From Propionimicrobium sp. PCR01-08-3 (GTDB taxonomy: Bacteria; Actinomycetota; Actinomycetes; Propionibacteriales; Propionibacteriaceae), in the NCBI RefSeq assembly GCF_030286045.1, contig NZ_CP127390.1, positions 2,745,482 through 2,809,481 on the forward strand: DNA of 64,000 nucleotides, written 5' to 3'. Numbering within the stretch: position 1 is the first letter of the stretch; every line of letters starts with the position of its first letter. The position numbers and the translations under genes are program-made. Below, in pieces: positions 6,811-48,466 of this stretch. The notes under the pieces are model-generated. The model was given only the letters and a program-made list of their open reading frames with translations. It did not search any database and was not told the DNA's origin.

Positions 6811-7125
6811 ATGGTATGTGCCCCCGGCCAGGTCAAGTGCGTTATGAACCAAGTCGGCGAAGCAGTTGTCGGTGACGCGATCGAGAACCTGAAAAACGCC
6901 GTCATGGAAGCCGTCGATTCAGCAGGAGCATCACTCGGCACCCTGTGGGTCAACGTCGGCACCCCCGACCTGACACAGTCCTCCCGTGTGGACACCACGG
7001 CTGATCCGCAACAAGCTGTGAGCGGCGTGCTGAGCTATGTGATGTGGATCGGTTTAGCAGTCGGGGTGATCAGGCTGATCATCATCAGCGTGAAGCTCGG
7101 ACTGCACCTCAATCCCAGGGATTGA
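6811..7125 (+). pseudogene. N-terminal fragment of a VirB6/TrbL-like conjugation membrane protein
   Basis: A 104-residue frame whose N-terminus (CAPGQVKCVMNQVGEAVVGDAIENL), NVGTPDL segment and single hydrophobic stretch (about 75-95) resemble the beginning of large polytopic conjugation proteins. Those proteins continue for several hundred residues with further membrane spans; here the frame stops after the first and runs 17 bp into the 3' end of the convergent fitB gene. This suggests deletion or insertion truncated it. Function is presumed lost. Confidence 0.5.
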
Positions 7126-7522
7126 TTATCTCGACACCTGCATACTCAAAATCTGACACATTGCGAGTCGCCACCGCGAAACTCCGTGAAGCAGCAATCG
7201 CGGCAATATACCCATCCGCTACCGCAAGACTGCGGCCCAATCTGCGGGCGTCTACGGCGATTTCTGCGTAGCGACGCGCGGATTCTTGATCAAACGCCAA
7301 CACACGACCGGCGAACAGCGCCAACAGCCCGTCCGCAGCTTTCCGTAGGCGATCTTTTCGCGCGCCGACCGGCAAGGCGCCGACACCGAAAAGTAGCTCC
7401 GCCACAGTGATACTAGAGACATACAAGGTGTCGATGGATTGGCCATCCAACCACGCCTGCACTCGCGCCTCCGGCCTCGGGCGCATCACTTCTGAGATCA
7501 CATTCGTGTCGAGAACAATCAC
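7109..7522 (-). CDS. fitB: FitB/VapC-type PIN-domain toxin
   Basis: A 137-residue PIN-domain ribonuclease. The acidic catalytic set is visible: D5 in VLDTNVISE, E42 in VAELLFG, then D103 in LAVADGYIAAIA and D122 in RNVSDFE. The wording is that of FitB, the VapC relative that cleaves RNA when free of FitA. It starts at GTG overlapping the FitA stop (GTGA), so translation is coupled. Its 3' end overlaps the conjugation-gene fragment. Confidence 0.88.
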   Translation of the reverse strand: MIVLDTNVISEVMRPRPEARVQAWLDGQSIDTLYVSSITVAELLFGVGALPVGARKDRLRKAADGLLALFAGRVLAFDQESARRYAEIAVDARRLGRSLAVADGYIAAIAASRSFAVATRNVSDFEYAGVEIINPWD

Positions 7523-7773
7523 GGCAGCTCAATCGGTTCCGCCGGAGTCTGGTCACGCACGGCCTCGATCTCGTCGATGTCACGATCGGTGAGCCCAAGA
7601 TCGCGCCCAAGGTCAGCCAAAGCGCGCCCCAGGTGGATCCTCCGTGCGGGAAGCACCGCTTCCGCCAAGATTTCGCGGACTTCTGCTTCCGCGCTGTGCC
7701 CGTGTTGCGCGGCGCGAGCCTTTAGAGCGCGATGGACGTCTTCCGGAACATTCCTCACCGTATATACCGCCAC
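7519..7773 (-). CDS. fitA: FitA-type ribbon-helix-helix antitoxin
   Basis: An 84-residue protein with an N-terminal RHH domain, VYTVRNVPEDVHRALKARAAQHG, then SAEAEVREILAEAVLP, the diagnostic FitA pattern. The C-terminal tail would block the FitB active site. It starts at GTG with GGAGG 6 nt upstream. The operon is fitA-fitB with a 4-nt overlap. An inverted repeat upstream is the likely FitAB operator. Confidence 0.87.
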   Translation of the reverse strand: MAVYTVRNVPEDVHRALKARAAQHGHSAEAEVREILAEAVLPARRIHLGRALADLGRDLGLTDRDIDEIEAVRDQTPAEPIELP

Positions 7774-7795
7774 CAGAACACCTCCAAGATCGCGA

Positions 7796-7822
7796 TGACA
7801 GCACTATTCTAGTTTGCTGTCA
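7796..7822 (-). promoter_or_regulatory. FitAB operator and promoter
   Basis: A perfect inverted repeat, TGACAGCA (7796-7803) and TGCTGTCA (7815-7822), has an 11-bp spacer. The spacer contains TAGAAT on the minus strand (7806-7811), a good -10. A further CTGTCA half-site occurs at 7831-7836. RHH antitoxins bind such repeats, so autoregulation is inferred. Confidence 0.62.
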
Positions 7823-7918
7823 CTGGAATCCTGTCATGATCACCACGATCCCGTCGGCTGATTTTTACCTCGTAGTGATTGCCCTCCGCAGGCTCAGCAG
7901 CGCGGGTACGCTCAGGCC

Positions 7919-9379
7919 ATGAGTGTCCCGATGACGATGGCCGATCTCGACTTCAGTGCGATCATCGAAAAATTCGAGTTGAGTGAGGCCTTCGCACCGG
8001 AGCTGGAGGACGAGGCCAGCCGGGCGTCCGATCGGTTCAGCGAAGGGCGCATTGATGCGCGCAACCTCGAACTGGTCACCATCGACCCACCCGGCTCCAA
8101 GGATCTCGATCAGGCCGTCCGCATCGAGCAGGGCACCGAAACAGGCGACGATGGCTTCACCCTTTATTACGCGATCGCCGACGTGGGCGCCTTCGTAGCT
8201 CCGGGCAGCCCCCTCGATGCCGAGGCGAAGAGACGCGGGGAGACTATCTATCTGCCCAGCGGAAACATCCCGCTTTATCCACGCGTCCTCACCGAGCAGA
8301 CTGCGAGCCTGGTCGCAGGCGAAGACCGCCCCGCCGTGCTCTGGCAGATCGAAACCGACGGCACCGGCCTGTTGACTAGCGCCCGGGTCCGCCGGGCAAT
8401 GGTGCGCGTCCGGGCCCGCCTCGACTACCCCAGTTTGCAGGCCCGATACGACCGTGCCGAATCCCTGCCCGAACCGATCAAACATCTGCCGGAGTTCGGC
8501 ACGATGAGGCAACAACGCGCCCGCGAGCGCGGCGCTATCGAACTGCACTTGCCGGAGCAGGACCTCGTCCGTACCCCTGACGGCTGGCAGCTACGCCTCG
8601 AACCCCGCACCCAGATGGACGCGTGGAACAGCGAATGCTCACTGGCTACCGGGATCGCCGCAGCCCGGATCATGTTCGCCGGAGGCGCCGGCCTGTTGCG
8701 CACCTTGCCCGCACCCAGCGACGCGGCAAAATCACAATTCCGGGCAGCAGCAAAGGCCCTCGGCGTCCGGATCATCGATGGCTTCCCGCCGGGCGAAATC
8801 TTGGCCCGGTTGGATCTGGCCGACCCTGCCGCCCTGGCTCTGAATGCTGCCGCTACCAAGCTGCTCCGGGGATCAGGGTATTTGGCCTTCTCGTCCCGGC
8901 CGCCGCAGCCGGAAGCCTGGCACGCCGGCGTGGCCGGTACCTACGCGCACGCAACCGCGCCTATCCGCCGGCTCGGCGACCGATTCGTGAGCGAGATTTG
9001 CCTGGCCTTCGGTGGCGATTGGGCACGCTTGGACGACGAGACCACCCATCTCAGCGGTAACCTCCCCGCCGATATCGCCGAAGCCCTGCCCGAGCTGCCG
9101 GGCCTGCTCTCTCGCTCCGGACGCATCGCCTCCGATGTCGAAAACTCCTGCATCAACCTTGCCGAGGCGGTCGCGCTGCAAGACTGCATCGGTCAGGTCT
9201 ACGACGCCGGCCTGCTGCGCGACGGCGACGAACAACATGACAGCGAGATCTTCGTCTACGAGCCTCCGGTCATCGCCCAATGCCGCGGTGAAGTTCCTGC
9301 GGGCCAAAAGGTGCAGGTCCGGCTGGCCGAAGTCGACGTCGACCAGCGAAAGGTGCGGTTCGCGTATCCGGTTGGTTAG
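7919..9379 (+). CDS. RNB-domain 3'-5' exoribonuclease (RNase II/R family)
   Basis: A 486-residue protein consisting mainly of an RNB catalytic domain. Visible are IDPPGSKDLDQAV (about 57-69, metal-binding aspartates), YAIADVGAFV, RGETIYLP, PLYPRVLTE and the late THAT-like AHATAPIRRLGDRFV. It lacks the N-terminal cold-shock and long S1 regions of RNase R, as in the compact actinobacterial RNB proteins. It should degrade RNA processively from the 3' end. No Shine-Dalgarno is seen; TACGCT lies six bases before the ATG, suggesting leaderless expression. It converges with the nei gene without a gap. Confidence 0.88.
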   Translation: MSVPMTMADLDFSAIIEKFELSEAFAPELEDEASRASDRFSEGRIDARNLELVTIDPPGSKDLDQAVRIEQGTETGDDGFTLYYAIADVGAFVAPGSPLDAEAKRRGETIYLPSGNIPLYPRVLTEQTASLVAGEDRPAVLWQIETDGTGLLTSARVRRAMVRVRARLDYPSLQARYDRAESLPEPIKHLPEFGTMRQQRARERGAIELHLPEQDLVRTPDGWQLRLEPRTQMDAWNSECSLATGIAAARIMFAGGAGLLRTLPAPSDAAKSQFRAAAKALGVRIIDGFPPGEILARLDLADPAALALNAAATKLLRGSGYLAFSSRPPQPEAWHAGVAGTYAHATAPIRRLGDRFVSEICLAFGGDWARLDDETTHLSGNLPADIAEALPELPGLLSRSGRIASDVENSCINLAEAVALQDCIGQVYDAGLLRDGDEQHDSEIFVYEPPVIAQCRGEVPAGQKVQVRLAEVDVDQRKVRFAYPVG

Positions 9380-44009: not shown

Positions 44010-45323
44010 GTGATCCGATCGCCCCGCTCCGTATGGAGTTCATTCGCTGACCGGGTCCGTCACCTCTTCGGATCGCGCCGCTGGCGGATCGCCCGTAATG
44101 GGGTGCTCGCCGGGCTGCTGGCGGGGCTGATCGGCAGCGCCTACCGGGCGATGATCGCCGAGACCTCGGGCGTTGCTCGCCGGATCTACGAGTTTCTGGG
44201 TTCGGAGGGCCCATTGCCGCTCGTGGCCTGGATGGTAGCTGCCGGATTGGCGGCATTCGCCACGTCGAGGCTGATCGTCTGGGAGCCGATGTCGTCCGGC
44301 TCCGGGATTCCGCAGGTCAAGGGGATCCTGGAGCACAAGATGACGATGCGTCCGCTGCCCGTGCTGGTGGCCCGCTTCGCCGGCGGGACGATCGGCTCGG
44401 TCTTCGGGCTCTCGTTGGGACGCGAAGGTCCCTCCATTCATCTCGGAGCGGCAAGCGCCCAGTTGCTCGCCAAACCCCTACGAGCCACCTCCGAGGAGCA
44501 GGATCATCTGCTGACCAGCGGGGCAGCGGCCGGTCTCTCGGCTGCGTTCAGCGCCCCCGTCTCGGGCATGTTGTTCGGCATCGAGGGCCTGCATCGCAGC
44601 TTCTCGCCGCTGGTGATTGCGTCCGCGTCCACCGGGGCACTCGCGGCCGACGCGGTGGCCACCGCGATCTTCGGACCGCACCCGATCTTGCAGTTCGGCA
44701 CCGTCGACGTGCTGACGCTGCCGTTGTTGTGGGTGGTGCTGCCACTGGGAGTGGTCGCGGGCCTGGTGGGTTCGCTGGTCAATCGGCTGCTGCTCGCCTC
44801 CCAAGATCTGTTGGGCAAATTGCCGACGACAGCGCGGCTATTCGTGGCACTGCTCATCGCACTGCCCTGCGGCCTGTGGCTTCCGCAGGTGCTCGGCGGC
44901 GGTGAGCGTCTCATCGGCTGGGCCGAGTTCGAGGCGACCGGGCTCGGCATCGTCGCGCTGCTGCTCGTCGCAAAGATCCTCTTCACGTCGACCAGCTTCG
45001 GGTCAGGAATCCCCGGCGGCATCTTCATGCCTATCCTCGCCATCGGCACTTTGACCGGCGCCGGTTACGCGATCGCGGCACAGACGCTGGGCCTGCCCGG
45101 CCAGTACCAGGCGATTCTGGCGGTGTGCGGCATGGCCGGTGTACTCGCGGCAAGCGTGCGGACCCCGCTCACCTCGATTCTGCTCACCGCCGAGATGACG
45201 GGCAGTCTGGCGCATCTACTTCCGGTCGCAACCGTCGTGGTCATCGCCGTGTTCACCGCGGACGCCCTGCGCATTCCGCCGATCTATGACGCGCTGCTCG
45301 AGCGCAGTCTCGAAGGGCCCTAG
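44010..45323 (+). CDS. ClC-family chloride channel/transporter
   Basis: A 437-residue membrane protein with the ClC selectivity motifs GSGIPQVKG, GREGPSIHLGA (gating glutamate) and GSGIPGGIFMPILAIG. No C-terminal CBS domains are present. It may be a Cl-/H+ exchanger supporting acid resistance; which mode cannot be told with certainty. It starts at GTG with TAGACT eight bases upstream. Its stop shares CTAG with the convergent corA stop. Confidence 0.9.
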   Translation: MIRSPRSVWSSFADRVRHLFGSRRWRIARNGVLAGLLAGLIGSAYRAMIAETSGVARRIYEFLGSEGPLPLVAWMVAAGLAAFATSRLIVWEPMSSGSGIPQVKGILEHKMTMRPLPVLVARFAGGTIGSVFGLSLGREGPSIHLGAASAQLLAKPLRATSEEQDHLLTSGAAAGLSAAFSAPVSGMLFGIEGLHRSFSPLVIASASTGALAADAVATAIFGPHPILQFGTVDVLTLPLLWVVLPLGVVAGLVGSLVNRLLLASQDLLGKLPTTARLFVALLIALPCGLWLPQVLGGGERLIGWAEFEATGLGIVALLLVAKILFTSTSFGSGIPGGIFMPILAIGTLTGAGYAIAAQTLGLPGQYQAILAVCGMAGVLAASVRTPLTSILLTAEMTGSLAHLLPVATVVVIAVFTADALRIPPIYDALLERSLEGP

Positions 45324-46450
45324 ATCCACCCTTTGCGGTGAAAGACCAGCCACATCACGACGGCCGATATCAGCATCATGCCTATCGCGTAGGGATATCC
45401 CGCTGCCCAATCCACCTCCGGCATATGGGTGAAGTTCATGCCGTAGATACCGGTGATCATGGTCGGGACGAATAAGATACCGGCCCATGCCGAGATCTTC
45501 TTCATATCCTCGTTCTGGGCATTGGACGCCTCGGCGAGGCTCTTCATCTCTTCGTTTTGCCGCTGCGCGACAAGCGCCGCATTCAGCGATAAAACGTCGC
45601 GGAGAGTCGTCCGGAAACCCTCGATTTCCTCCAATGCACGGGCCGAGTGATCGGCCACGTCGCGCAGGTATTCCTGCAGGTCGTCCGAGACCTCGTATTT
45701 GCTGAATCCGCCCGCCAAGCCGCCGATAATGGCCCGCAGCGGACGCACCGCCTCGTGAAAATCGACGACTTCCTGGCTCAATTCATAGATACGCCGCGAG
45801 ACGCCGGCCGAGCCGGTGAATACCTGATCCTCGATCTCTTCCACATCGTTGGCCAGACCTTCGAGCACCGGCGCATAGCCATCGACCACCGCGTCCAAAA
45901 TCGCATAGACGATGCCTTCAGGCCCGAAGGAAAGCATCTGCGGATCGGCTTCCATCCGGCGGCGCACCACGCTCAGATCGGGCGAGCGCCCGTGCCGGAC
46001 GGTGATCACGAAGTTGGCGCCACTGAAGATGTGCAACTCACCGAATTCGATCTCTTCTGCCTCGTCGATATAGCGGGCCGCCCGCAGCACCAAGAACAAG
46101 GTCTCGTCATAGCGCTCGAGTTTGCTGCGCTGATGAGCCGAGATGGCATCTTCGACGGCGAGCTCATGCAAACCGAATTGTTCGCCGAGTTCGATCAAAT
46201 CGTCCGAATCGGGTTGATAGAGACCGATCCAGGCCATCGAGCCCGGGATTTCTTGAAGCTGGGCCGCCGCCTCGGCAAGAGAATCGGGACGCGAGATGCG
46301 TTTTCCGCCGACATAGATCGCATTTCCGGTGACGGTTCTCGGTTGCTGTTCGGGGGCGATGGGGACCCGTTTGACCGGGGTCGGGAAACCGAAATTTCCG
46401 CCCAGGCGAGGCGGCTGATCACGTGCGGCAAAAGGACGATCGGTGGTCAT
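45320..46450 (-). CDS. corA: CorA-family Mg2+/Co2+ transporter
   Basis: A 376-residue protein with a long soluble N-terminal domain (WIGLYQPDSDDLIEL, FLVLRAARYID), a helical stalk and two C-terminal membrane helices. The signature GMNF is at 337-340, followed by a short acidic loop THMPEVDW. It forms a pentameric Mg2+ channel. ATG 46450 follows GAGAG; upstream in-frame codons continue but overlap the leader. The 5' leader holds a small proline-rich ORF and hairpins that probably regulate it. Confidence 0.92.
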   Translation of the reverse strand: MTTDRPFAARDQPPRLGGNFGFPTPVKRVPIAPEQQPRTVTGNAIYVGGKRISRPDSLAEAAAQLQEIPGSMAWIGLYQPDSDDLIELGEQFGLHELAVEDAISAHQRSKLERYDETLFLVLRAARYIDEAEEIEFGELHIFSGANFVITVRHGRSPDLSVVRRRMEADPQMLSFGPEGIVYAILDAVVDGYAPVLEGLANDVEEIEDQVFTGSAGVSRRIYELSQEVVDFHEAVRPLRAIIGGLAGGFSKYEVSDDLQEYLRDVADHSARALEEIEGFRTTLRDVLSLNAALVAQRQNEEMKSLAEASNAQNEDMKKISAWAGILFVPTMITGIYGMNFTHMPEVDWAAGYPYAIGMMLISAVVMWLVFHRKGWI

Positions 46451-46504
46451 ATCTACTCTCGATCTTTCGGGGAGGCGGGGTGTGGCCGGGCAACGGCCGA
46501 AGCT

Positions 46505-46569
46505 GCGGAAAGGTGCGAAGAAATCAATTCCGCGGACTAGGAGGTTCACTGGGCATACCAGAACCTCCT
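46505..46569 (-). promoter_or_regulatory. Hairpins in the corA leader
   Basis: AGGAGGTT (46539-46546) pairs with AACCTCCT (46562-46569), then CTGG (46549-46552) with CCAG (46558-46561), around a 5-nt loop. In the RNA this hides the leader ORF's Shine-Dalgarno and start codon. A second stem, 46505-46510 with 46528-46533, involves the last leader codons. Translation of the leader would disrupt both. Confidence 0.6.
46524..46556 (-). CDS. Proline-rich leader peptide upstream of corA
   Basis: A 10-codon ORF, MPSEPPSPRN, begins with ATG (46556-46554) and ends TGA (46526-46524). A perfect Shine-Dalgarno AGGAGG (minus strand, 46569-46564) lies 7 nt before the ATG. Four of ten residues are proline with one acidic residue, recalling Salmonella MgtL and related Mg2+-transporter leaders in which translation difficulty at proline codons controls transcription. 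The stop is 73 nt before corA. Expression is not proven; the match of Shine-Dalgarno, length, composition and neighbour is the evidence. Confidence 0.6.
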   Translation of the reverse strand: MPSEPPSPRN

Positions 46570-46721
46570 TTCTGATCGGACGCGAGAGTCGATGTGGCAA
46601 TTGTGTCACTTGACCAGCCGGACCGGCAAAGCCGAATACCACTGACAGCCGACCTCGCAAAAAGCGCCGCTAATGAACCGGACGACACCACCAGCGCACC
46701 GCCCGCCGATTGTTCGGCTCA

Positions 46722-46994
46722 GGTGGATAACTTCGTCCTGGTTGTGGACAGCCGATTGCACCCCTGCGGCGTCATCGGCCGCGCCGTGGGCGAAACGCCC
46801 GGATCGCAACTATCTCGCGACACGCCGAGGAATCTTTGAGACACCGGCAGAGTCACCAATTTCACCTTGTCAAGTCGCATTTGCTGGATGAAACTCGGTC
46901 ATGCTCGAAGTGTTAACCACATCGTTGTCCACCGACGGATCGGCGAGTTCCACAGGCTTGCGTGGTTCTCCACAAGCCTTGTGGATAACTTCGT
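46722..46994. promoter_or_regulatory. Cluster of DnaA-box-like sites upstream of dnaB
   Basis: The 46661-47122 region has no supported gene. It holds TGTGGATAA (46980-46988, a perfect DnaA box on the minus strand) and one-mismatch boxes at 46722-46730, 46743-46751, 46925-46933 and 46966-46974. The 14-mer GTGGATAACTTCGT occurs twice (46723-46736, 46981-46994). It may regulate dnaB, titrate DnaA or be part of an origin; no dnaA or dnaN is adjacent. Confidence 0.55.
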
Positions 46995-47122
46995 TTGACA
47001 GCTCGATGCGGTGCTTCTAGTCTGCCGTGGACAGCGGGTTAGGACGGGGCGTCCTTCGACAGGCAGCACCTGGTAATGGTGGATGGCGTAAGCAACGATT
47101 TTGCCGGAGAGGGAGGGGCACG

Positions 47123-48466
47123 ATGTACGACGATGCGCCCGGCGCACCCTCCGGAATCGATCGCACTCCCCCACAGGATTTCGCGGCCGAGCAGGGCGTG
47201 CTCGGCGCCATGCTGATGAGCAAGGACGCGATCGCCGAGGTCCTGGAGGTCATCAAGCCGGCGGACTTCTATCGTCCGGCACATGAATTGATCTATCAGG
47301 CCGTCATCGACCTCTATGGCCACGGCGACCCGGCCGACCCCGTGACGGTCGCCGCCGAGCTCGACCGGCGCGGCGAACTCTCCCGGGTCGGCGGCCACGT
47401 CTATCTGGCCGACCTGTTGTCGTCCATCTCGGTGGCCGCGAATGCCGCCTACTACGCGAAGATCGTGCACGACAAGGCGGTGCTGCGCCGCCTGGTGGAC
47501 GCGTCCATCAAGATCGCCCAGCTCGGCTATCAAGGCCAGGGTGAGGTCGAGAACATCGTCGACGTCGCCCAGCAGACCATCTACGAGGTCTCCGAAGGGA
47601 AACGCTCCGAGGACTACAAGCCGCTGCGCGAACTGCTGGAGCCCACCTACGATGAGATCGAGGCCATCGGAGCCCGCGGTGGCGGCCTTTCGGGAGTGCC
47701 GACCGGGTTTGCGAAGCTCGACGAGCTGACCAACGGCCTGCACGGCGGACAGATGATCATCATCGCCGCCCGGCCTGCGGTCGGCAAGTCGACGCTGGCT
47801 CTCGATTTCGCCCGCTCGGCGGCCATCAAACACAAGCTGACCACGGCATTCTTCAGCTTGGAGATGAGCCAGTCCGAGATCGTGATGCGTCTGCTGTCGG
47901 CCGAGGCAGGCGTGATGCTGAACTCGATCCGCAACGGCAGCCTCGGCGAGGACGAGTGGTCCCGGATCGTGACCCGCACGAAGTCGTTCGAGGATGCCCC
48001 GCTGTTCATCGACGATTCCCCCAACCTGACCATGATGGAGATCCGGGCGAAGGCCCGCCGGCTCAAGCAACGCCACGACCTGCGTTTCGTGGTGATCGAC
48101 TACATGCAGTTGATGAGTTCGGGCAAGAAGGTCGAGAGCCGCCAGTTGGAGGTCTCGGAGTTCAGCCGCCAGATCAAACTGCTCGCCAAAGAGCTCGACA
48201 TTCCGGTGGTGGCGTTGAGCCAGTTGAACCGTGGCCCCGAGCAGCGCGGCGACAAGAAGCCGATGATGAGCGACCTGCGTGAATCAGGTTCGCTCGAACA
48301 GGACGCCGACATCGTGATCCTGCTGCACCGCGAAGACCTCTATGAGAAGGACAATCGTCCCGGTGAGGCCGACCTGATCCTCGCGAAGCACCGCAATGGA
48401 CGCACCGACACCCTGCCGGTCTCCTTCCAAGGCCATTTCAGCCGCTTCACCGATATGCCGGATTAG
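47123..48466 (+). CDS. dnaB: Replicative DNA helicase DnaB
   Basis: A 447-residue helicase. The N-terminal domain (PPQDFAAEQGVLGAMLMSKDAI) binds primase; the RecA-like domain has Walker A ARPAVGKSTLALDFAR (about 218-233), FFSLEMSQSEIVMRLLSAE, VVIDYMQLM and the arginine-finger region with AKHRNGRTD. No intein interrupts it. The ATG is preceded by GGGAGGGG. It unwinds DNA at the replication fork as a hexamer. Neighbours rplI and ssb, common elsewhere, are absent. Confidence 0.97.
   Translation: MYDDAPGAPSGIDRTPPQDFAAEQGVLGAMLMSKDAIAEVLEVIKPADFYRPAHELIYQAVIDLYGHGDPADPVTVAAELDRRGELSRVGGHVYLADLLSSISVAANAAYYAKIVHDKAVLRRLVDASIKIAQLGYQGQGEVENIVDVAQQTIYEVSEGKRSEDYKPLRELLEPTYDEIEAIGARGGGLSGVPTGFAKLDELTNGLHGGQMIIIAARPAVGKSTLALDFARSAAIKHKLTTAFFSLEMSQSEIVMRLLSAEAGVMLNSIRNGSLGEDEWSRIVTRTKSFEDAPLFIDDSPNLTMMEIRAKARRLKQRHDLRFVVIDYMQLMSSGKKVESRQLEVSEFSRQIKLLAKELDIPVVALSQLNRGPEQRGDKKPMMSDLRESGSLEQDADIVILLHREDLYEKDNRPGEADLILAKHRNGRTDTLPVSFQGHFSRFTDMPD

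Follow-up and report, generated by a model that had tools for sequence, protein, structure and literature searches.

In the accessible text of the sources cited here, the Mg2+-responsive leader peptides that we found in print belong to Gammaproteobacteria. In Salmonella and E. coli, mgtA is preceded by mgtL, a short ORF containing both proline codons and acidic codons, in an RNA that can form alternative stems, and inefficient elongation of the MgtL peptide at low Mg2+ leads to more transporter (PMC11552253). Translation of mgtL, and likewise of the enterobacterial corL ahead of corA, runs inverse to the expression of mgtA and corA, with Rho involved; efficient translation of corL reduces corA expression in a Rho-dependent manner, and only one proline is conserved in CorL (PMC11552253). 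A third system, the 8-aa ORF mgtQ of Salmonella, requires Asp2 and Glu5 (PMC8092293). It resembles the leader described below in its AGGAGG, its acidic codons 2 and 5 and its alternative stem-loops, but it is intergenic within an operon, acts on mgtB and occurs in Enterobacteria and their near relatives (PMC8092293).

From Actinobacteria, the mycobacterial uORF2/Rv1805A is likewise a small ORF with a conserved proline in a Mg2+ leader; however, it lies behind an M-box and is described as mycobacteria-specific and of unknown function (PMC12810186), whereas the present leader stands alone. In front of mgtE of M. abscessus, a ribosome-protected uORF coincides with an M-box (PMC4974804). Among RNA elements, the M-box precedes corA, mgtE, mgtA and NRAMP-type genes, and Mg2+ controls one gene of the latter type (PMC4072509). 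The gammaproteobacterial corA motif is a riboswitch candidate confined to Gammaproteobacteria (PMC6429828); the accessible text of PMC6429828 and PMC11109978 covers this motif and the Thioalkalivibrio mgtE motif, and no such actinobacterial leader. Nor is the leader mentioned in the accessible parts of PMC12288461 and PMC10597346. A literature search that covered mainly the main text of openly accessible papers returned no published description of it, and the class is apparently undescribed so far.

A short proline ORF in front of corA

The leader was found in the window, i.e. the whole stretch of 64,000 nucleotides that was analysed, where it sits on the minus strand in the interval between corA and dnaB. 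The preliminary description of this DNA had read an AGGAGG, 7 nt, the peptide MPSEPPSPRN with its stop and a distance of 73 nt to corA, all of which is exact on the minus strand. The following features are relevant here.

45320..46450, minus strand: corA, gene for a CorA-family Mg2+/Co2+ transporter (TIGR00383, E 1e-63; PF01544, E 2.9e-62)
46451..46523, minus strand: C-rich spacer of 73 nt from the leader stop to corA, read from the sequence
46524..46556, minus strand: leader ORF MPSEPPSPRN + TGA, with ATG at 46556-46554 and TGA at 46526-46524 (sequence, relatives and pattern scan)
46536..46547, minus strand: core GAA CCT CCT AGT (E-P-P-S), defined by codon counts across families
46564..46569, minus strand: leader Shine-Dalgarno AGGAGG, read from the sequence

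The seven nucleotides between the Shine-Dalgarno and the leader ATG read TTCTGGT. The corA gene starts with ATG at 46450-46448 behind a weak Shine-Dalgarno (GAGAG), and this position matches the corA starts of three related loci (L003, L004 and L005). A longer CorA running through the leader (446-aa ORF) was considered and discarded because its frame is closed upstream in L003 and L004, 96 nt 5′ of the corA start. The strict pattern GGAGG-N5-12-RTG-N6-9-GARCCYCCYAGT, which was devised after relatives had been inspected, matches once in the window and never in 100 shuffles; in the 3.29-Mb genome it also matches once, and the reversed pattern does not match at all.

An Rfam search of window positions 46000-47200 and ten related loci gave no match to the leader, and a ZTP riboswitch match near it, with 16 bits against a threshold of 39 bits, was taken as chance. 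Five leader peptides of 21-24 aa had no match among the NCBIfam models, which is a weak test for chains so short.

As is typical of MgtL, the putative 5′ leader of this Mg2+ transporter gene contains a short ORF in which proline codons and acidic codons occur. The label 'MgtL-type', used in the preliminary description, can be retained for the way in which the leader may work, but not as a statement of family membership. MgtL belongs to Gammaproteobacteria and to mgtA; comparing descriptions, we noticed no sequence that it has in common with the leader. The MgtL peptide is longer than the actinobacterial leader, and core and hairpin of the latter seem to differ from it. We know of no report of an MgtL start region that is closed by its own proline codons. 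CorL is similar in that its uORF lies ahead of corA, as in the window; here, too, the sequences were compared by description.

Conservation of the leader before corA

Among the CorA matches in 146 related genomes, we examined the best 29 non-self loci (L003-L031), 25 of which come from one genus (f2; f-numbers are family labels) that is presumably 'Kribbella-like'. A leader, defined as a Shine-Dalgarno plus a short ORF with an early [ED]P[PS], is found upstream in 28 of these 29 loci and in further families. Conservation of ORF and stems in relatives had been set beforehand as a test, and the outcome supports the leader. The proposed comparison of corA leaders likewise brought out a common Shine-Dalgarno, a common peptide core and hairpin, and compensatory changes in the stem. 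The sole exception, L005, is a corA locus of the window's own genus, in which GAACCTCC and part of the hairpin are kept and ATG, GTG and TTG are all missing. At this lost leader start, the frame of L005 stays open into corA.

Among the matches listed, 40 further CorA loci, mostly less similar, include three with a leader (L032, L039 and L055), and in a class-wide set of CorA loci (83 listed matches, 6 left out) it is present in 23 of 68 further ones. The leader table comprises 55 loci, the window included, from a scan that demanded GGAGG or GGCAGG; the latter variant occurs in L073 only. The peptides span MSQPPSTN and MSGEPPSRRPRS up to MRSEPPSHAPQG... and MTSDPSRHTDLARPRGN.

Because a CorA clade at about 54% identity lacks the leader in all rows of the tree, and the Streptomyces-like corA loci (f22) with upstream DNA in the class-wide set have it in 1 of 12 cases, we conclude that the leader is restricted to some branches of this tree and was gained or lost several times. 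We counted 12 leader changes on this tree, three of them forced, both numbers being slightly overcounted. In the same tree L011, an order-mate of the window, groups with Nocardioides, and the order in question is presumably Propionibacteriales.

Occurrence across the class and the phylum

A covariance model (R1) built from eight f23 sequences and one f12 sequence, with the window excluded, recovers the window leader among 76 loci at E=2.5e-6. The window leader is not a chance pattern. From 29 R1 matches we took 26 to build a second model, R2, dropping the second L074 match, L034 and L025. When 394 genomes of the class were searched with R2, 49 of them contained a total of 50 matches at E<=0.05. 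The 35 matches with E<=4.3e-4 comprise 29 before corA, five before mgtE (L153, L161, L166, L170 and L171) and one (L172) before neither; 16 of the 29 corA matches were training sequences of R2 itself, and none of the five mgtE matches was. Among the 15 weaker R2 matches (L174-L188) there was no CorA, and no leader before any Mg2+ gene. A verified leader is present in 34 of the 394 genomes. A hairpin resembling the leader (MRDSDPPSRGRA...), its upper stem 6 bp long, is common to two species of genus f40 (L179 and L183, both among the weaker matches); the downstream DNA examined there contains no gene of the four Mg2+-linked types.

With a third model, R3, 8 of 326 genomes in a phylum sample matched at E<=0.001. 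Four of the matches were already known (G000, G088, G175 and G246), and the new ones are L312, which precedes corA, L313, a locus outside the class that precedes a gene for a soluble MgtE_N + CBS protein (MgtE_N-CBS), and L314 and L315, which precede neither. Since the strict filters drop weak matches, these genome shares are lower bounds. The distribution of the leader across class and phylum is clearly patchy.

Leaders in front of other transporter genes

The strict pattern was also run over GTDB genomes without regard to genes and gave at least 120 matches. Among the 120 listed, tblastn located an MgtE gene no more than 700 nt downstream in 53 and a CorA gene in 34. In the remaining 33 listed matches, six precede NRAMP genes and ten precede MgtE_N-CBS genes, with L208 as an eleventh MgtE_N-CBS case identified by tblastn. 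A Mg2+-linked gene is thus found downstream in 104 of the 120 matches listed (53 mgtE, 34 corA, 6 NRAMP and 11 MgtE_N-CBS), to which L298 and L306, with corA genes judged by eye to be truncated, are additional. Of the 16 NRAMP/MgtE_N-CBS cases, 8 were searched with Pfam, and four of these matched MgtE_N and the other four PF01566 (Nramp); the remaining assignments are from tblastn. CorA, MgtE and NRAMP are unrelated families; MgtE_N-CBS has a domain in common with MgtE. Named carriers are Nocardia and Streptomyces for mgtE, Nocardioides, Terrabacter, Geodermatophilus and Isoptericola for corA, and Acidimicrobiaceae assemblies for MgtE_N-CBS. The notion of an independent actinobacterial version that controls corA, put forward in the preliminary description, is upheld as far as sequence can tell, but it proved too narrow, as mgtE, NRAMP and MgtE_N-CBS genes follow the leader too.

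In all ten loci with enough sequence (L208, L217, L237, L242, L243, L252, L257, L270, L279 and L294), an NRAMP gene directly follows the MgtE_N-CBS gene. We therefore regard them as one operon type, and the arrangement suggests a pair of Mg2+ sensor and transporter. For 14 of the 120 listed matches (L197, L204, L220, L229, L234, L235, L255, L259, L277, L280, L284, L291, L303 and L304) no Mg2+ gene was in place on that strand. Several of these come from other phyla and are chance-like, L280 is cut off, and the peptide of L197 is leader-like. In L304, an MgtE_N-CBS gene (7057-7998, minus strand) lies near the leader-like element, which is on the plus strand, so that the two are on opposite strands. 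Overall, one of the four gene types follows 160 of 170 distinct leader contexts, a set that was partly gathered via CorA. Because the loci share ancestry, locus counts are not independent.

The nature of the downstream genes bears on whether the leader responds to a signal at all. It could be constitutive and merely set mRNA stability or translation coupling, for which one can point to its being short and near the 5′ end, and to the signal response being only a proposal. A general stability device, however, would not explain the leader, because 104 of the 120 listed matches precede Mg2+-linked genes, and these are of different families. We regard a leader of this constitutive kind as very improbable.

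Comparison with the M-box

The M-box (RF00380, ykoK leader) serves the same families as the leader, namely corA, mgtE and NRAMP-type genes (PMC4072509). Unlike the leader, it is an aptamer of 169 positions and has no leader peptide. No M-box above the gathering score was found in the window region, in the window genome (G000) or in the ten leader loci; in the class, RF00380 occurs in 25 of the 394 genomes. In 20 of the 46 M-box matches that were examined, the next gene is NRAMP in two, mgtE in four and corA in two, an MgtE_N-CBS gene follows at a distance of some 1.8 kb in one, and 11 were without the four gene types according to tblastn. In two of these 20 loci (L321 and L328) the following gene reads by eye like MgtC.

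Two more M-boxes precede corA (L112 and L115). A strict swap of M-box and leader at one corA orthologue was considered and rejected, as L112 and L115 fall in a neighbouring CorA clade. Because the M-box corA genes lie outside the leader-bearing clade, we limit the claim to transporter families that both elements have in common. That leader and M-box have these families in common is our strongest argument that the leader serves Mg2+. Only one genome (G479) of the 394 has both an M-box and a verified leader, a near-exclusion that is not significant because the genomes are too few.

Hairpins in the leader

Two hairpins can be drawn for the leader RNA of the window.

46539..46569, minus strand: hairpin P1, 12 bp, pairing the Shine-Dalgarno arm (46569-46558) with codons 2-6 (46552-46550, 46547-46539); from MFE fold, covariance models R1-R3 and pair counts
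46505..46533, minus strand: hairpin P2, pairing the last leader codons (46533-46528) with the spacer (46510-46505); from MFE fold and tests of pairing between leader tail and spacer

It had been stated before that a 12-bp hairpin formed with codons 2-6 holds Shine-Dalgarno and start codon and that the last codons enter a second stem, and the MFE fold agrees. In the local MFE fold, P1 has a 2-nt bulge and the leader start codon is located in the loop. The CCTCC of the core doubles as the anti-Shine-Dalgarno arm of P1. As a whole, the 181-nt leader region is more stable than shuffled versions (z -2.74; 4 of 200 shuffles as low). The nearest leader-bearing relatives, L003 and L004, have kept the 9-bp lower stem of P1 but not its upper part.

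When P1 pairs were counted over 59 sequences, in alignments fitted to the model and with the Shine-Dalgarno pairing CCTCC regardless, 85.7% of the cells were paired, and there were 30 double changes versus 14.8 in shuffles. None of 500 shuffles covaries to this degree, nor does any slid version of the hairpin; for the first 26 sequences, 1 of 500 shuffles was as high. Permuting the spacer between Shine-Dalgarno and start weakened P1 just moderately (mean z -0.58, 143 leaders). In local folds of the same number of leaders, the Shine-Dalgarno is paired in 132/143 and the start codon fully unpaired in 100/143. As for P2, the leader tail pairs with its own spacer better than with shuffled spacers (mean z -1.77, 157 leaders). 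By group, the mean z is -2.59 for mgtE, -2.02 for f2 corA, -0.86 for NRAMP and -0.37 for MgtE_N-CBS, i.e. the pairing is weak in the last two groups.

Selection on the peptide and on the RNA

We compared the codons of 25 distinct corA leaders, which had been picked by Shine-Dalgarno and peptide xPPS with codons unconstrained. CCT encodes the first proline in 23 of the 25 and AGT the serine in all of them, whereas in the corA genes of the same loci CCT accounts for 20 of 399 proline codons (5%) and AGT for 11 of 450 serine codons (2%). Since CCT and AGT are fixed in the leaders and rare in the genes, CCUCCnAGU is kept as RNA. At the acidic codon of the core, GAA and GAG interchange. On the peptide level, the core [E/D/Q]P(P/S) is maintained across families: [ED]P, which was set against the acidic/proline cluster close to the N-terminus in intrinsic ribosome destabilization (IRD) sequences, is found in 144 of 151 leaders, and QPPS, with no acidic residue there, in the other 7. 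Single-base codon changes in 629 related leader pairs, which overlap and whose core is partly fixed by the search, were synonymous in 1677 and nonsynonymous in 1283 cases, a synonymous share of 57%, where random changes to these codons would give 27%. The leader thus appears to be kept both as peptide and as RNA.

This bears on the idea that the element acts as RNA only, with P1 (together with P2) binding a metal or a protein and the ORF being incidental or serving to clear the RNA. The strong fixation of the CCT and AGT codons and the covariation of P1 would be in line with such an element, as would the f2 genus, in which CCTCC is kept though displaced by one base relative to the frame. But the start codon, the reading frame and [E/D/Q]P have been preserved in the different families, f2 leaders have whole codons added ahead of the motif (MSEPSRH, MNSDPSRH, MNNSSDPSRH), the share of synonymous changes is twice the random one, and a single short hairpin has no evident Mg2+ aptamer. 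A purely RNA-based function is therefore, in our estimation, rather unlikely.

If the leader is translated, its prolines could matter in their own right. It might sense the capacity to translate proline (charged tRNA-Pro or EF-P) by a stall at Pro-Pro, with Mg2+ transport as the output. Of 151 leaders, 126 have two adjacent prolines in their core, and in Salmonella it is ATP and charged tRNA-Pro to which mgtM and mgtP respond (PMC8092293). On the other hand, 25 of 151 leaders have a single proline there ([E/D]PSR), and what the controlled genes have in common is Mg2+, the same families also carrying M-boxes. Sensing of proline is thus an unlikely reading as well, if slightly less so than a function as RNA only. 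To our knowledge, no single known rule of ribosome faltering fits all variants of the leader motif, because the core is not uniform.

Promoter, spacer and coupling to the main gene

A weak candidate promoter precedes the leader.

46600..46629, minus strand: TTGCCG-18-CACAAT, recognised by eye

A consensus scan gave no promoter at 46600..46629, and CACAAT does not qualify as a TANNNT word. In the relatives, 51 of 149 leaders have a TANNNT word 28-35 nt upstream of their Shine-Dalgarno (shuffled upstream DNA: mean 7, maximum 15, 200 rounds), and the CACAAT of the window (46605-46600) ends 31 nt before GGAGG, inside this peak. Because the -10 words favour one distance from the leader, the latter is probably located at the 5′ end of the mRNA, and it is likely included in the transporter mRNA. 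A consensus scan of 46300-47200 detected no intrinsic terminator with a U-run between leader and corA.

The spacers contain more C than G in 74/88 corA, 41/53 mgtE, 5/6 NRAMP and 5/10 MgtE_N-CBS loci. For corA, the fractions are 0.41 C and 0.31 G in the spacers versus 0.33 and 0.34 in upstream DNA. Median spacer lengths are 83-86 nt for corA and mgtE, and 140 and 196 nt for the two other groups. The C-rich corA spacers would fit a Rho-loading RNA, which is as expected but no proof.

In the f2 genus, a CCUCCAG around the stem of the LARP codons is complementary to the corA Shine-Dalgarno CUGGAGG. Over 149 leaders, the leader CCUCC pairs with the start region of its own main gene at -9.25 kcal/mol versus -8.76 kcal/mol for swapped partners (2000 permutations, p 0.0005). 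This advantage stems from corA (own -9.99), chiefly f2; mgtE and NRAMP do not show it, and MgtE_N-CBS gives a mixed picture. Because the clear effect comes from corA, above all f2, we do not offer an anti-Shine-Dalgarno switch onto the main gene as a general platform. Closed hairpins at the Shine-Dalgarno of the main gene show no excess (mean z 0.14).

Model of leader function

Conserved among the leaders are the ORF, its motif, P1, most of P2, the promoter distance and the association with the four gene types. It is reasonable to propose, with a probability of about two in three, that the leader is translated, acts in cis and represents an actinobacterial class of leader peptides linked to Mg2+ transport genes. 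We infer that it is translated and that Mg2+ is the signal, as well as the sign and the platform of the switch.

Judging from the position of the -10 words, transcription would begin some 20-30 nt upstream of the leader Shine-Dalgarno. In vivo, the start region would fold into P1, in which the Shine-Dalgarno pairs with the leader's own [E/D/Q]-P-(P/S) codons. An initiating ribosome would have to melt P1 and would then meet the motif within the first 3-7 codons. At low Mg2+, by analogy with MgtL, CorL and MgtQ, the ribosome may falter or drop off at the motif. This would leave the last leader codons free, so that P2 could form with the spacer and the transporter would be expressed. With adequate Mg2+ the ribosome would reach the stop codon, which would block P2 and expose the C-rich spacer, and expression would be off. 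The shut-off might be brought about by Rho or, in f2, by CCUCCAG, which, once freed, could base-pair with the Shine-Dalgarno of corA.

A more far-reaching version of this model, which we put forward tentatively and at somewhat less than an even chance, is that Actinomycetota have a class of their own in which the ribosome is the Mg2+ sensor. In this version a single dodecanucleotide, GAR-CCU-CCN-AGU, would encode the faltering motif E-P-P-S and, with its CCUCC, also provide the anti-Shine-Dalgarno that shuts the start site of the leader, and a ribosome halted on E-P-P-S would itself keep the switch open. Scattered over the phylum and placed before corA, mgtE and NRAMP genes, the module would replace the M-box of other lineages. 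A separate and shorter class in Actinomycetota, linked to transporter families that are unrelated, would mean that ribosome-based Mg2+ sensing arose repeatedly or is ancient. Such a class would also help to mark the regulon of Mg2+ genes in Streptomyces, Nocardia and Nocardioides, among others, and represent a compact system in which the same bases set peptide code and RNA structure.

Other features of the corA region

In the intergenic region between corA and dnaB there are words that we take to be DnaA-box-like, TTATCCAC at 46723-46730 and 46981-46988 (minus strand) and TTCTCCACA at 46966-46974. TTATCCAC occurs three times in the window (the third at 8275) versus 0.57 expected. L003, L004 and L005 have words of this kind upstream of the leader position as well. 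On its other side, corA is convergent with an ORF for a ClC-type chloride channel (44010-45323, plus strand), and the ends of the two overlap by four bases (45320-45323).
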